From NCBI GenBank assembly GCA_029945665.1, contig JAQSCZ010000094.1, forward strand, positions 76,574 through 110,696: a DNA stretch of 34,123 nt. The letters are read 5' to 3'. The notes under the pieces were generated by a model, which was given only the letters and a program-made list of their open reading frames with translations, searched no databases and was not told where the DNA came from. The translations under genes were made by a program, and so were the position numbers. The stretch comes from a bacterium. Lineage in GTDB: Bacteria > Bacteroidota > Bacteroidia > NS11-12g > UBA955. Positions 10,131-13,420 of this stretch are shown piece by piece. Within the stretch, counting starts at the first letter, position 1; each line of letters opens with the position of its first letter.

Positions 10131-10613
10131 TTAGTAAATATTTAGCTGTTTTTCTAACAATTTAATGAAATCATATTGCAAATCTTCATGCATTGAGGCA
10201 ATCGACTTGCGGATTTTCTTTATTTGCCCATCATACAAATTCAGCAGCGCAGTGCTGCCATGGAAGTCCAAACCTAAGCCATTTAACCGCACACAAAAGT
10301 GTATGAGCAATTCTGCACTGGTTTGAGGATTCCCTGAATACTTTATGTATTTGGTGACGGATCTTAAAATCTTGCGAATACTTTTCTTAGCTAAATAATA
10401 ATTTCGGGTTGTGATTTCTTCAAATAAACCTTCTACCTCTGCCTTAATATTTTCTATATATAATTCTTCATTGCCACTTTCAAACAAAATATAGTGAAGT
10501 AATTCTTTGTTTTCCTTTTTATATTTTGCCATTCGGGCACACAATTCTACCAATTGTTCTTGAGGCAAGGTTTGTAATTCTTTTTTAATTCCTGAGAGAG
10601 AAGTTGTCTGCAT
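10131..10613 (-). CDS. Conserved Bacteroidota-type protein of unknown function (160 aa, helical)
   Basis: I do not assign a function. The 160-residue protein has no signal peptide or membrane segment, is rich in Lys, Glu and Leu, and is probably almost all helical and cytoplasmic. The opening (KKELQTLPQEQLVELCARMAKYKKENKELLHYILFE, given as start and end of the segment) resembles a small uncharacterised family in this phylum, possibly DUF6155. That name is from memory and unverified. The start is ATG. An exact -7 element TATTTTTG lies 14-21 bases upstream on the same strand. It converges on ftsZ and is separated from it by a shared terminator. Confidence 0.75.
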   Translation of the reverse strand: MQTTSLSGIKKELQTLPQEQLVELCARMAKYKKENKELLHYILFESGNEELYIENIKAEVEGLFEEITTRNYYLAKKSIRKILRSVTKYIKYSGNPQTSAELLIHFCVRLNGLGLDFHGSTALLNLYDGQIKKIRKSIASMHEDLQYDFIKLLEKQLNIY

Positions 10614-10626
10614 TCTGATAATGACA

Positions 10627-10659
10627 CAAAAATAATACTTTTAAATTTAGACTATCAAA
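10627..10659 (-). promoter_or_regulatory. Predicted promoter of the 160-residue gene
   Basis: On the - strand TTTG (10,659-10,656) is followed after 21 bases by TATTTTTG (10,634-10,627). The second element is an exact match to the Bacteroidota -7 consensus TAnnTTTG. It lies just upstream of the ATG at 10,613 and overlaps the T-tract of the neighbouring - strand terminator. Confidence 0.55.
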
Positions 10660-10684
10660 CAAAAACCCCAGCATAACTGAGGTT
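10655..10684 (-). terminator. Intrinsic terminator read from the - strand, ending the structured RNA
   Basis: AACCCCAG (10,664-10,671) and CTGAGGTT (10,677-10,684) form an 8-bp stem (one G-U pair) around a five-base loop. On the - strand the stem is followed by TTTTTGTTTG. There is no T tract on the + strand. No - strand protein gene lies upstream for it to end, which points to a non-coding transcript covering 10,685-10,850. Confidence 0.6.
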
Positions 10685-10835
10685 CGTTTGTGATTTTAAG
10701 AGCTTTAGGTTTAAAGTAACAAAAAGAGCTGGACCGAGAAGGCGTATAGGGTGGCCCATGTTTTCAAGTGGGCCCGCCTTCTCAAAGTCCAACATACAGC
10801 TGGTGCAAAGGAAGGATACTTTATCCAATTAAAAA
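10665..10835 (-). ncRNA. Candidate 6S-like structured RNA
   Basis: Complementary blocks nest in order around one axis. The outermost is TAAAGTA (10,712-10,718) with TACTTTA (10,817-10,823), extended by GG/CC. Then comes a large internal loop of 8 against 15 bases. Next are AGCTG (10,727-10,731) with CAGCT (10,797-10,801), GGAC with GTCC, and GAGAAGGCG (10,736-10,744) with CGCCTTCTC (10,775-10,783). Innermost is GGCCCA (10,753-10,758) with TGGGCC (10,769-10,774). The GC-rich arms stand out from AT-rich surroundings. Closing stem, central bubble and long terminal arm are the architecture of 6S RNA, the RNA polymerase regulator. The - strand is favoured because a terminator lies on that side. 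The 5' end is uncertain. The identity as 6S is inference; the structure itself is seen. Confidence 0.6.
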
Positions 10836-10837
10836 AG

Positions 10838-10876
10838 CGTAAAACTACGCAAAATTTTTACGTAGTTTTACGTACG
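10838..10876. promoter_or_regulatory. Cluster of CGTA-N4-TACG dyads, probable operator
   Basis: CGTAAAACTACG (10,838-10,849) and its exact reverse complement CGTAGTTTTACG (10,861-10,872) are separated by 11 bases. Each arm is itself a CGTA-N4-TACG dyad, so two identical sites lie 23 bp centre to centre. The right-hand site runs into a further CGTACG palindrome (10,871-10,876). This looks like tandem binding sites for a dimeric regulator. A candidate is the LuxR-type regulator encoded at 12,776. On the - strand the repeat is followed by six T residues, so a terminator reading is possible but has no obvious transcript to end. Confidence 0.55.
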
Positions 10877-10948
10877 CAAAAGTAGACACTATTTGCAACC
10901 AATTGATTTTCTATTGTTTATGCAGCGATAGTGATTTTAAAAAAAAAC

Positions 10949-10977
10949 TTGCTGCCTTATTATTATTCTTATTTTTG
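10949..10977 (+). promoter_or_regulatory. Predicted promoter of the small Asn-rich gene and signalling cassette
   Basis: TTG (10,949-10,951), an 18-base spacer and TATTTTTG (10,970-10,977) match the Bacteroidota TTG / TAnnTTTG promoter closely. The ATG follows 22 bases later. The dyad cluster lies about 75-110 bases upstream of the TTG element, a position suited to an activator. Confidence 0.65.
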
Positions 10978-10999: not shown

Positions 11000-11320
11000 A
11001 TGCCTAACCCAAACATTACACCAAACACAGGCGGTCAAATTTCACTTCCTTCAGCCATTCAATGGACCACCAATTTCAGAAACCAGAATCCAACAGCTGT
11101 TAAAGCACACTTTTTTGGTAATGTAATTATCAACGAAATTTTAAATCAACCAGGCTGTATCGGTTTGCGTTTATATAATGCCATAGATGACAACAACCAA
11201 CCTCAAATATTACTAGTAGGTGTAGACAATAACAACAATGATATGACCAATGGAATAATTGCAGACATGAGTCAACCATGCCCTACACAATGCAGTGGTA
11301 ATAATGTTTTATGGATGTAA
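11000..11320 (+). CDS. Small Asn-rich protein of unknown function (106 aa)
   Basis: I do not recognise a characterised family. The 106-residue protein has no signal peptide or membrane segment. It is rich in Asn, Pro and Gln, and carries WTTNFRNQNP (about residues 22-31), QPGCIGLRLYNAIDD in the middle, VGVDNNNNDM, and a two-cysteine C-terminal block CPTQC. I have a general memory of similar WxTxFRxxNP proteins in Bacteroidota genomes, unverified. It has its own near-consensus promoter and precedes the membrane protein, kinase and regulator genes by 48 bases, so it may be part of that cassette or its main target. A structural or ligand-binding role is open. Confidence 0.75.
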   Translation: MPNPNITPNTGGQISLPSAIQWTTNFRNQNPTAVKAHFFGNVIINEILNQPGCIGLRLYNAIDDNNQPQILLVGVDNNNNDMTNGIIADMSQPCPTQCSGNNVLWM

Positions 11321-11368
11321 AACTGGATAATAATGTTTAAGTACTTTAATTTATAATGAACGCCCCTC

Positions 11369-12001
11369 ATGAATTATTATAAATTATTGGTCACCATTTC
11401 TATGGCCTCCATTATACTGCCTAACATAGGTGGCATACTCGCTTATAGAAAGCTCGATATAGAAGGCAAAAAGATATTACTTTTTTTTGGTGTATTTATG
11501 ATTGTAGATTTCACCATTTCGTGGCTGGCCAATCACAATATTAACAACATGCCAATGTTTAATATTTTTAGTATTTTGGAATATGGGTTTTATGCTTACT
11601 TATTTTACTCAAATATAAATAACCGCAATTGGCGAAAAGGGATTTATTACTCCATCTGGTTCTTTTCAGCATTTACCATATTTGCTGTCATATTTATACG
11701 ATCTATCTATGAATTTAATTCAGAGGTTCGAGTGGTTGAATCACTTTTTCTGGTATTTTGTTCTCTGCTTTATTTCAGCCAATTGTCTAACACACTCATT
11801 TTCGAAAGAACAAAAATATTTAAGATTCCAATGTTCTGGATTAGTATTGGGGTGCTTTTCTACTTTGCAGGCAATTTTTTCCTATTCCTTTTTTTCAGAG
11901 AAATTTCTCAAATAAGTCCAACTATTTGGTCTTTGCACTCAGTAGTTAATATTATTACCAACTCACTTTTTATGATCTCATTCTTATGCAGACTCAAGTA
12001 A
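11369..12001 (+). CDS. Multi-pass membrane protein of a kinase-regulator cassette
   Basis: The 210-residue protein is strongly hydrophobic with six or seven predicted membrane segments (about residues 4-26, 33-53, 61-80, 92-111, 119-139, 152-175 and 185-207) and short loops. No enzyme motif is visible. Its end overlaps the histidine kinase gene by 16 bases, so the two are probably translated together. That kinase has only one membrane helix and no sensory domain. The inference is that this protein is the sensing subunit or an accessory membrane anchor. The exact function is unknown. Confidence 0.8.
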   Translation: MNYYKLLVTISMASIILPNIGGILAYRKLDIEGKKILLFFGVFMIVDFTISWLANHNINNMPMFNIFSILEYGFYAYLFYSNINNRNWRKGIYYSIWFFSAFTIFAVIFIRSIYEFNSEVRVVESLFLVFCSLLYFSQLSNTLIFERTKIFKIPMFWISIGVLFYFAGNFFLFLFFREISQISPTIWSLHSVVNIITNSLFMISFLCRLK

Positions 12002-12789
12002 ATATACTTTTTGTAGTGCTAGCTAGCGCCATATTTGCACTTTTATTGGTGGCTTTTATTGTTATATTTTTAAACATTACACAAAAACGCAGTTTTAAAT
12101 ACAATGAAAATTTACTTCGCATAAAACAAGAATACGATAGTGCGATACTAAATTCTCAAATTGAAGTGCAAGCCCAAACTTTAAAAGAAATATCAGAAGA
12201 ACTTCACGACAATGTTGGTCAGATATTAAGTTCTGTTATTTTGCACATTAAGGTTATTGGAGAGAAGGCCCCCGTAAATATTCAAAAGCAGATTGAAGAC
12301 ACCAAATCTTTAGTCACTGAAATTAAAGAGCAAGTAAGACATATATCAAGAAGTATTTCACCGCAACATATAGAGAACTTTGGATTATTCAACGCGATAA
12401 CTTATCAAGCGGATAGAATCAATAGAATTGGAGCTATTAAAATAGAATTAAAAACAGAAGGCAAAGAAAAAAAATACAATCCAAGAATTGAATTGGTGCT
12501 TTTTCGCATGGTTCAAGAGCTTATTAACAATGCTATTAAACACAGTGAATGTGAAAATATTTACGTGAAGCTTAATTATGTAAATGAGGTGCTAACCATT
12601 TCGGTAAAAGATGATGGCAAAGGTTTTGACGAAACTGAAATATTGCGAGATAGACAATTTCGAGATGGCACCGGTTTACATTCTCTTGAGAACAAGGCTA
12701 AATTTATAAACTGCAGTATAACCTTTAACAGCGGCGAGAAGGGAACCAAAGTAACAATTATTAAAGACTTCGAAAATGAATATTATTAA
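11986..12789 (+). CDS. NarL-type (HisKA_3) sensor histidine kinase
   Basis: The 267-residue protein has one membrane helix (about 7-30), a short coiled-coil-like segment, then a HisKA_3 dimerisation domain with ELHDNVGQ, putting the phospho-accepting histidine at residue 74. The HATPase domain shows the N-box ELINNAIKHSE, the G1 box DDGKGFD, and GTGLHSLENKAK. It lacks any periplasmic or PAS/GAF sensory domain, so input probably comes through the overlapping upstream membrane protein. It overlaps the response-regulator gene by 14 bases, and phosphotransfer to that protein is the natural expectation. Confidence 0.92.
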   Translation: MQTQVNILFVVLASAIFALLLVAFIVIFLNITQKRSFKYNENLLRIKQEYDSAILNSQIEVQAQTLKEISEELHDNVGQILSSVILHIKVIGEKAPVNIQKQIEDTKSLVTEIKEQVRHISRSISPQHIENFGLFNAITYQADRINRIGAIKIELKTEGKEKKYNPRIELVLFRMVQELINNAIKHSECENIYVKLNYVNEVLTISVKDDGKGFDETEILRDRQFRDGTGLHSLENKAKFINCSITFNSGEKGTKVTIIKDFENEYY

Positions 12790-13420
12790 TATTGGCATTG
12801 CCGATGATCATAGATTATTTCGAAAAGGCCTGATAGCATTACTTTCACTATATGATGATTTAAATATTATCTGGGAAGCTTGTGATGGAAAAGATTTATT
12901 ACAAAAAGCAGATGAACAGCTACCCGATATTTTGTTAGTCGACGTTAATATGCCCAAAATATCTGGAATCGAAGCTACCAAAAAACTAATTCAAAAATAC
13001 CCTAAATTAAAGATTATTGCTTTGAGCATGTTTGAAGACAATGGCCATATTATAGCAATGATTGAAAGTGGCGCTAAAGGTTATCTAATCAAAGATTCTG
13101 AACCTTCGGATATCTATATATCCATTATTGAACTTTACAATAAAGGTTTTATTAACTCAAGTTTAGTTGCGAATGCACTTCAAAATAAAATGGAGGCAAG
13201 TGGCGCAGAAAGTGCCATGTTTGCATCCTTGAACGACAAAGACAAACAGTATCTAAAGTTAATTGCGGAAGGTCAATCTGCCAAAGAAATTGCGGCTAGT
13301 TTCAATACCAGTTCCCGCACAGTGGAAGGTTATATTGAAAAAATAATGACTAAACTTAATGCGAAAAACCGAATACAATTAGCCACCTATGCGGTTAAAC
13401 ACGGCCTAACAGAAGCCTAA
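12776..13420 (+). CDS. LuxR/NarL-family response regulator
   Basis: The 214-residue protein has an N-terminal receiver domain with acidic residues at 10-11 and the phospho-acceptor Asp56 in LLVDVNMP. A C-terminal LuxR-type helix-turn-helix lies around SAKEIAASFNTSSRTVEGYI. It is the partner of the overlapping upstream kinase. Proteins of this class bind short inverted repeats as dimers. The tandem CGTA-N4-TACG dyads at 10,838-10,876 are the best candidate sites in the window, which would make the cassette autoregulated. That link is inference. Confidence 0.93.
   Translation: MNIINIGIADDHRLFRKGLIALLSLYDDLNIIWEACDGKDLLQKADEQLPDILLVDVNMPKISGIEATKKLIQKYPKLKIIALSMFEDNGHIIAMIESGAKGYLIKDSEPSDIYISIIELYNKGFINSSLVANALQNKMEASGAESAMFASLNDKDKQYLKLIAEGQSAKEIAASFNTSSRTVEGYIEKIMTKLNAKNRIQLATYAVKHGLTEA

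Follow-up and report, generated by a model that had tools for sequence, protein, structure and literature searches.

In the gammaproteobacteria, the GacA-controlled RsmY/RsmZ and CsrB-type RNAs combine a LuxR/NarL-family regulator with a palindrome located upstream of a terminated small RNA gene. The locus described here, which lies beside the cell-division gene ftsZ in a 34,123-nt stretch of the genome of an uncultivated Bacteroidota bacterium (hereafter the window), resembles the GacA-RsmY/RsmZ arrangement in that a small RNA gene ending in an intrinsic terminator is preceded by a predicted regulator palindrome. It differs in its palindrome, phylum, and promoter type, with no sequence similarity shown between the two systems, and, unlike CsrA-binding RNAs, the small RNA is devoid of repeated GGA hairpins. 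The trans-acting RNAs of the Bacteroidota (BTncRNA_FopS, GibS, and Rfp18 of Flavobacterium; PMC9723704) are likewise intergenic, transcribed from their own promoters, structured, and conserved at the genus level. In the Rfam scan, FopS and GibS scored 19 and 15.7 bits (cut-offs, 56 and 115, respectively); both were chance-level matches to the opposite strand. With 6S RNA (RF00013 and RF01685; Bacteroides 6S, PMC7366714), the element shares a long, GC-rich, imperfect hairpin of similar size, whereas its ends are unpaired, its closing stem is not conserved, no Rfam match is obtained, and it is confined to four genomes and placed under a regulon promoter.

Few small RNAs of the Bacteroidota have known promoters or regulators, and a literature search for a LuxR-type regulator of this phylum associated with a small RNA returned no relevant result. 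At the present locus, the operator, spacing, -7 box, RNA, and terminator can all be read from the sequence, which provides a testable link from regulator to RNA, and the locus also gives a regulon definition for an uncultivated clade. The hairpin, which an earlier note had described as 6S-like, was re-read once its promoter was recognized. It probably belongs to a new trans-acting small RNA of a NarL-type two-component regulon, encoded on the minus strand from about 10,801 to 10,655.

Structure and conservation of the RNA element

The minus-strand features of the locus are as follows.

10,131-10,613, minus strand: gene for a 160-aa protein of unknown family; the gene follows the small RNA and has its own promoter
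10,627-10,634, minus strand: -7 box TATTTTTG of the 160-aa gene (in three relatives, TATGTTTG occupies this position)
10,655-10,801, minus strand: predicted small RNA of about 147 nt, starting near 10,801-10,799 and ending in the T-run of the terminator (from promoter class, terminator, and four-genome conservation)
10,660-10,685, minus strand: intrinsic terminator of the small RNA (from folds, terminator scan, and one compensatory pair)
10,691-10,727, minus strand: largely unpaired linker from hairpin to terminator, with the conserved end AAAAUCACAAACG (from alignment and folds)
10,728-10,793, minus strand: long, near-invariant hairpin of 22 base pairs (from pairing in four genomes, compensatory pairs, and column invariance)
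10,806-10,813, minus strand: -7 box TTCCTTTG of the small RNA, with exactly the 23-nt operator distance seen at four other sites in the genome
10,837-10,850, minus strand: proximal operator GCGTAGTTTTACGC, a NarL/LuxR-type palindrome (from seven exact GCGTAGTTYTACGC copies; class conserved in relatives)
10,860-10,873, minus strand: distal operator ACGTAAAACTACGT (proximal and distal pairs also occur at L091 and L095)
10,877-10,890, minus strand: outer element AGTGTCTACTTTTG (over 10,879-10,892, all but two of the 14 columns are invariant)

The nested complementary blocks that the earlier note had described over positions 10,712-10,823 are present in the sequence. Folding of the region gave -41.9 kcal/mol (z = -3.84) for the minus strand and -44.4 kcal/mol (z = -3.55) for the plus strand, each beating 200 of 200 dinucleotide shuffles. 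The core of the folded element is a single long hairpin of 66 nt, with the minus-strand layout GUUGGACU..GAGAAGGCG-GGCCC-loop-GGGCC-bulge-CGCCUUCUC-GGUCCAGC. In the four genomes that carry the element, 22, 21, 22, and 22 of the 22 standard pairs are formed on the minus strand, compared with 20, 19, 19, and 20 on the plus strand; the plus strand has fewer pairs in every genome because the G-U pairs work only in a minus-strand RNA. The terminator facing the minus strand, also described earlier, is real (about 10,685-10,660; -16.0 kcal/mol, z = -3.35), and the terminator scan agrees.

No other long stretch of the locus is as conserved as the hairpin: 49 of its 66 columns are invariant in the four-genome alignment, as against 16 of 69 in the gap that precedes the divergent operon. 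When relatives were checked for compensatory changes, as the earlier note had proposed, two pairs in the apical helix of the hairpin (in G006) and one further pair in the terminator were found to be changed on both sides. The covariation is thin, at three such pairs, because only four sequences carry the RNA, and on these four the element has the conserved structure and compensatory changes of a non-coding RNA. The linker between the hairpin and the terminator is a candidate target-pairing region.

A DNA search of 70 genomes of the family identified the element in three further genomes, all of the same genus (G012, G018, and G006), with 83, 83, and 79% identity and E-values of 3e-45 to 3e-34. 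In all of them, it is flanked by the 160-aa gene on one side and by the 106-aa gene/kinase region on the other, the latter region being partly gone in G018. Covariance model R1 gave convincing matches in only 4 of the 108 genomes of the order. The weak R1 matches elsewhere that were inspected lay mostly in apparent coding sequence, and one of them (L073) was an unrelated terminator-like hairpin. An exact-pattern search of about 85,000 species yielded no further homologue, although a far-diverged one could be missed by this search and by R1. The pattern records in three Bacteroidota MAGs (JANXMZ010000059, CAJBKH010000310, and CANMBF010000020) add no further homologue, and a pattern match in Hydrogenedentota (L088) was rejected, having no structure match.

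Promoter of the small RNA

When the window genome was searched with the intergenic region, every strong extra match fell on the inverted repeat at 10,837-10,876, a second repeat that is absent from the earlier note and is key to the locus. Its unit, GCGTAGTTYTACGC, is present in seven exact copies in the window genome and, with one mismatch allowed, at 11 sites, compared with 2 for a backward control. The motif TnnnTTTG is located exactly 23 nt downstream of the operator at five of the seven exact sites, and a sixth carries TAATTTAG there; with 60 possible offsets taken into account, five of seven sites would share a single offset by chance with a probability of about 1e-10. The promoter class is composed of the NarL/LuxR-type palindrome GCGTARWTYTACGC, a spacing of exactly 23 nt, and the Bacteroidota -7 box in the form TnnnTTTG. 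The -7 box of the phylum is TAnnTTTG (PMC7366714). That of the small RNA, TTCCTTTG or GTCCTTTG, has its TCCTTTG core in all four genomes and is without the usual A at position 2.

By the 23-nt spacing rule, the -7 box of the small RNA is TTCCTTTG at 10,813-10,806, with a predicted start near 10,801. The promoter suggested earlier (TACTTTTG at 10,884-10,877, closely preceded by a TTG) does not mark the likely start and was rejected in favour of the conserved TTCCTTTG. It is replaced by CACTTTTG in one relative, and at the regulon sites the operator separates its look-alikes, which are upstream, from the -7 box. The TACTTTTG sequence belongs instead to the outer element (roughly TGTCYnAYTTTTG), which precedes the operators at several other regulon sites. 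Beyond the small RNA, a TAnnTTTG box (TATTTTTG or TATGTTTG) lies between the terminator and the start codon of the 160-aa gene in all four genomes; this gene therefore has its own promoter, and the small RNA is thus not simply its leader. The small RNA itself has a predicted promoter and an intrinsic terminator separate from those of its neighbours.

Alternative readings of the element

Although the folded element is genuine and conserved, it is very unlikely to be 6S RNA. Of the earlier proposal of a 6S-like regulatory RNA, the structured and terminated minus-strand RNA is well supported by its occurrence at one place in four genomes, the compensatory pairs, the promoter class, and the terminator, whereas the 6S identity lacks support. 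The closing stem on which the 6S-like shape depended (10,712-10,718 with 10,817-10,823) is outside the minimum-energy fold of both strands; it pairs in 79% of the cells and is broken in one of the four genomes (G006), even when a one-base shift of the alignment is allowed. Because the predicted start is near 10,801, the upstream arm of this stem is promoter spacer rather than RNA, leaving the 5' and 3' ends of the transcript unpaired. Without a closing stem, the unpaired 5' GCUGUAUG and 3' UCUUUU would be free ends rather than a bubble. No Rfam 6S match was obtained for the window at the gathering threshold or for the locus at E-values up to 10, and the Rfam scan was also silent for the homologous loci in relatives. 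Permissive thresholds gave only chance-level matches (PsrR1, 20.6 bits; FopS, 19 bits), none of which is 6S. RF00013, which had matches in eight control genomes, gave nothing above its cut-off in 39 relatives and therefore neither recognizes the small RNA nor points to another 6S RNA. The silence of RF01685 (6S-Flavo) means little, because the control genomes gave no match either. A broad vertical distribution is expected of 6S RNA, and the element is found in 4 of the 108 genomes of the order. A 6S RNA (or analogue) specific to this lineage, binding RNA polymerase through an open-complex-like bubble, would account for the long GC-rich hairpin with bulges and for the conserved unpaired 5' segment adjoining the inner stem, and Bacteroidota 6S sequences diverge greatly; nevertheless, such an RNA is improbable in view of the closing stem, the Rfam results, the narrow distribution, and the dedicated regulon promoter. 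Also unlikely is a lineage-specific RNA whose near-invariant hairpin acts on a protein, either RNA polymerase or an RNA-binding regulator, and which is made on two-component demand; such an RNA would be an analogue of 6S or CsrB placed under signal control, and in one relative it would have survived the loss of its regulator.

The element might also be a cis-acting leader or attenuator of the 160-aa gene, with the hairpin switching the terminator on or off. The gene is on the same strand, its start codon is only about 47 nt beyond the terminator, and it is the constant neighbour in all four genomes. The -7 box between the terminator and the start codon, the absence of an alternative antiterminator pairing in the folds, and the presence of 160-aa orthologues without the RNA elsewhere in the family make this reading unlikely as well. 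The plus strand folds equally well, and yet a functional RNA on that strand has little probability, since it has fewer pairs in every genome and both the regulon promoter and the best terminator are oriented for minus-strand transcription. Similarly low is the probability that the palindrome with its T6 run is a terminator rather than an operator: it does score as a minus-strand terminator, but it lies at an exact 23-nt spacing from the -7 box, no minus-strand gene is evident immediately upstream in the window, and it is degraded in the relative that has lost the regulator (G018). The least credible reading is a translated small ORF of 46 codons (ATG near 10,795), which is open to the terminator in the window genome. 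Three genomes have MLDFEKAGP in common, but there is a stop at codon 4 in G006 and a frame-shifting indel between the window genome and the others, giving lengths of 46, 29, 21, and 3 codons, and the paired positions are conserved irrespective of codon position.

The regulon and its neighbouring two-component system

The preferred reading, a trans-acting small RNA of a NarL-type regulon, draws in the divergent operon, which has the following features.

10,970-10,977, plus strand: -7 box TATTTTTG of the divergent operon (TATTTTTG in two relatives, TAATTTTG in the third)
11,000-11,320, plus strand: first gene of the operon, for a 106-aa protein of no known family
11,369-12,001, plus strand: gene for a 210-aa probable membrane protein of no known family
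11,986-12,789, plus strand: gene for a histidine kinase (HisKA_3 and HATPase_c), the candidate sensor
12,776-13,420, plus strand: gene for a NarL-family response regulator (receiver and GerE/LuxR helix-turn-helix), the candidate activator of the small RNA

Transcription would start just after the -7 box TTCCTTTG, and its activator would be a response regulator of the NarL/LuxR type that occupies one or two palindromic operators (GCGTARWTYTACGC) abutting the -33 region. The likeliest regulator is the neighbouring one (12,776-13,420), which would act together with the histidine kinase encoded at 11,986-12,789; the 106-aa and 210-aa proteins that open this operon (11,000-12,001) had no Pfam or NCBIfam match and are candidates for accessory sensor parts. 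The predicted transcript comprises a short 5' tail, the long near-invariant hairpin, the mostly unpaired linker with its conserved end, and the intrinsic terminator, an architecture that points to mRNAs of the response as the RNA's most likely targets, in trans and presumably by base pairing. Such action would extend the regulon beyond its direct promoters.

The combination of operator and box was found in the window genome (G000; 6 sites) and in its relatives G006 (5), G016 (3), and G018 (2). The remaining 104 of the 108 genomes of the order had no such site, and the backward version of the pattern had one match in the 108 genomes. The small-RNA promoters of G012 and G006 escape the combined pattern because of GTCCTTTG, with the operator and spacing present. 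The shared palindromic operator, at a fixed promoter distance, thus precedes several genes. Genes behind it include those for a 268-aa secreted protein (orthologues in G000, G006, and G018), an 83-aa membrane protein (G000 and G016, with a 95-aa relative in G006), and a DUF6924 protein (G000 and G016). The presence of orthologous genes behind the same promoter in different genomes indicates that the promoter class is conserved, and the small RNA is one of its members.

Close relatives of the regulator are present only in G000, G012 (81%), G006 (63%), and G016 (73%, cut by the contig end). These four genomes have both operator and regulator, and the genus members without matches have neither. 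The small, lineage-specific regulon is probably run by the sensor/regulator pair encoded next door. G018 lacks the regulator, yet two intact operators are found at other genes (L105 and L109), which suggests that the loss is recent or that another regulator reads the site. The kinase of this genome (L090:2123-2926) has ELQDH where ELHDN holds the phospho-acceptor histidine, Gln replacing His; the operators before its small RNA are degraded, and the hairpin, -7 box, and outer element are intact. By its sequence, G018 appears to retain a decaying two-component system beside a deleted response regulator.

Several regulon sites have further features. At L110 and L104, a gene for a small membrane protein of the 83-aa type with a regulon promoter is followed by a gene for a putative CMP-sugar (NeuA-type) cytidylyltransferase; such a cytidylyltransferase-like gene follows the membrane protein gene in both G006 and G016. 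At L114, the membrane protein gene is close to the contig end. In G006, a long inverted repeat (GTGCAATAATTCT..AGAATTATTGCAC) lies behind the regulon promoter at L115, and no open frame begins at that position. A strong hairpin (CCTTCTCCAATTC..GATTGGAGAAGG) is located downstream of the operator at L106 of the same genome, near a contig end; it has GAGAAGG/CCTTCTC in common with the small RNA and might represent a second RNA gene.
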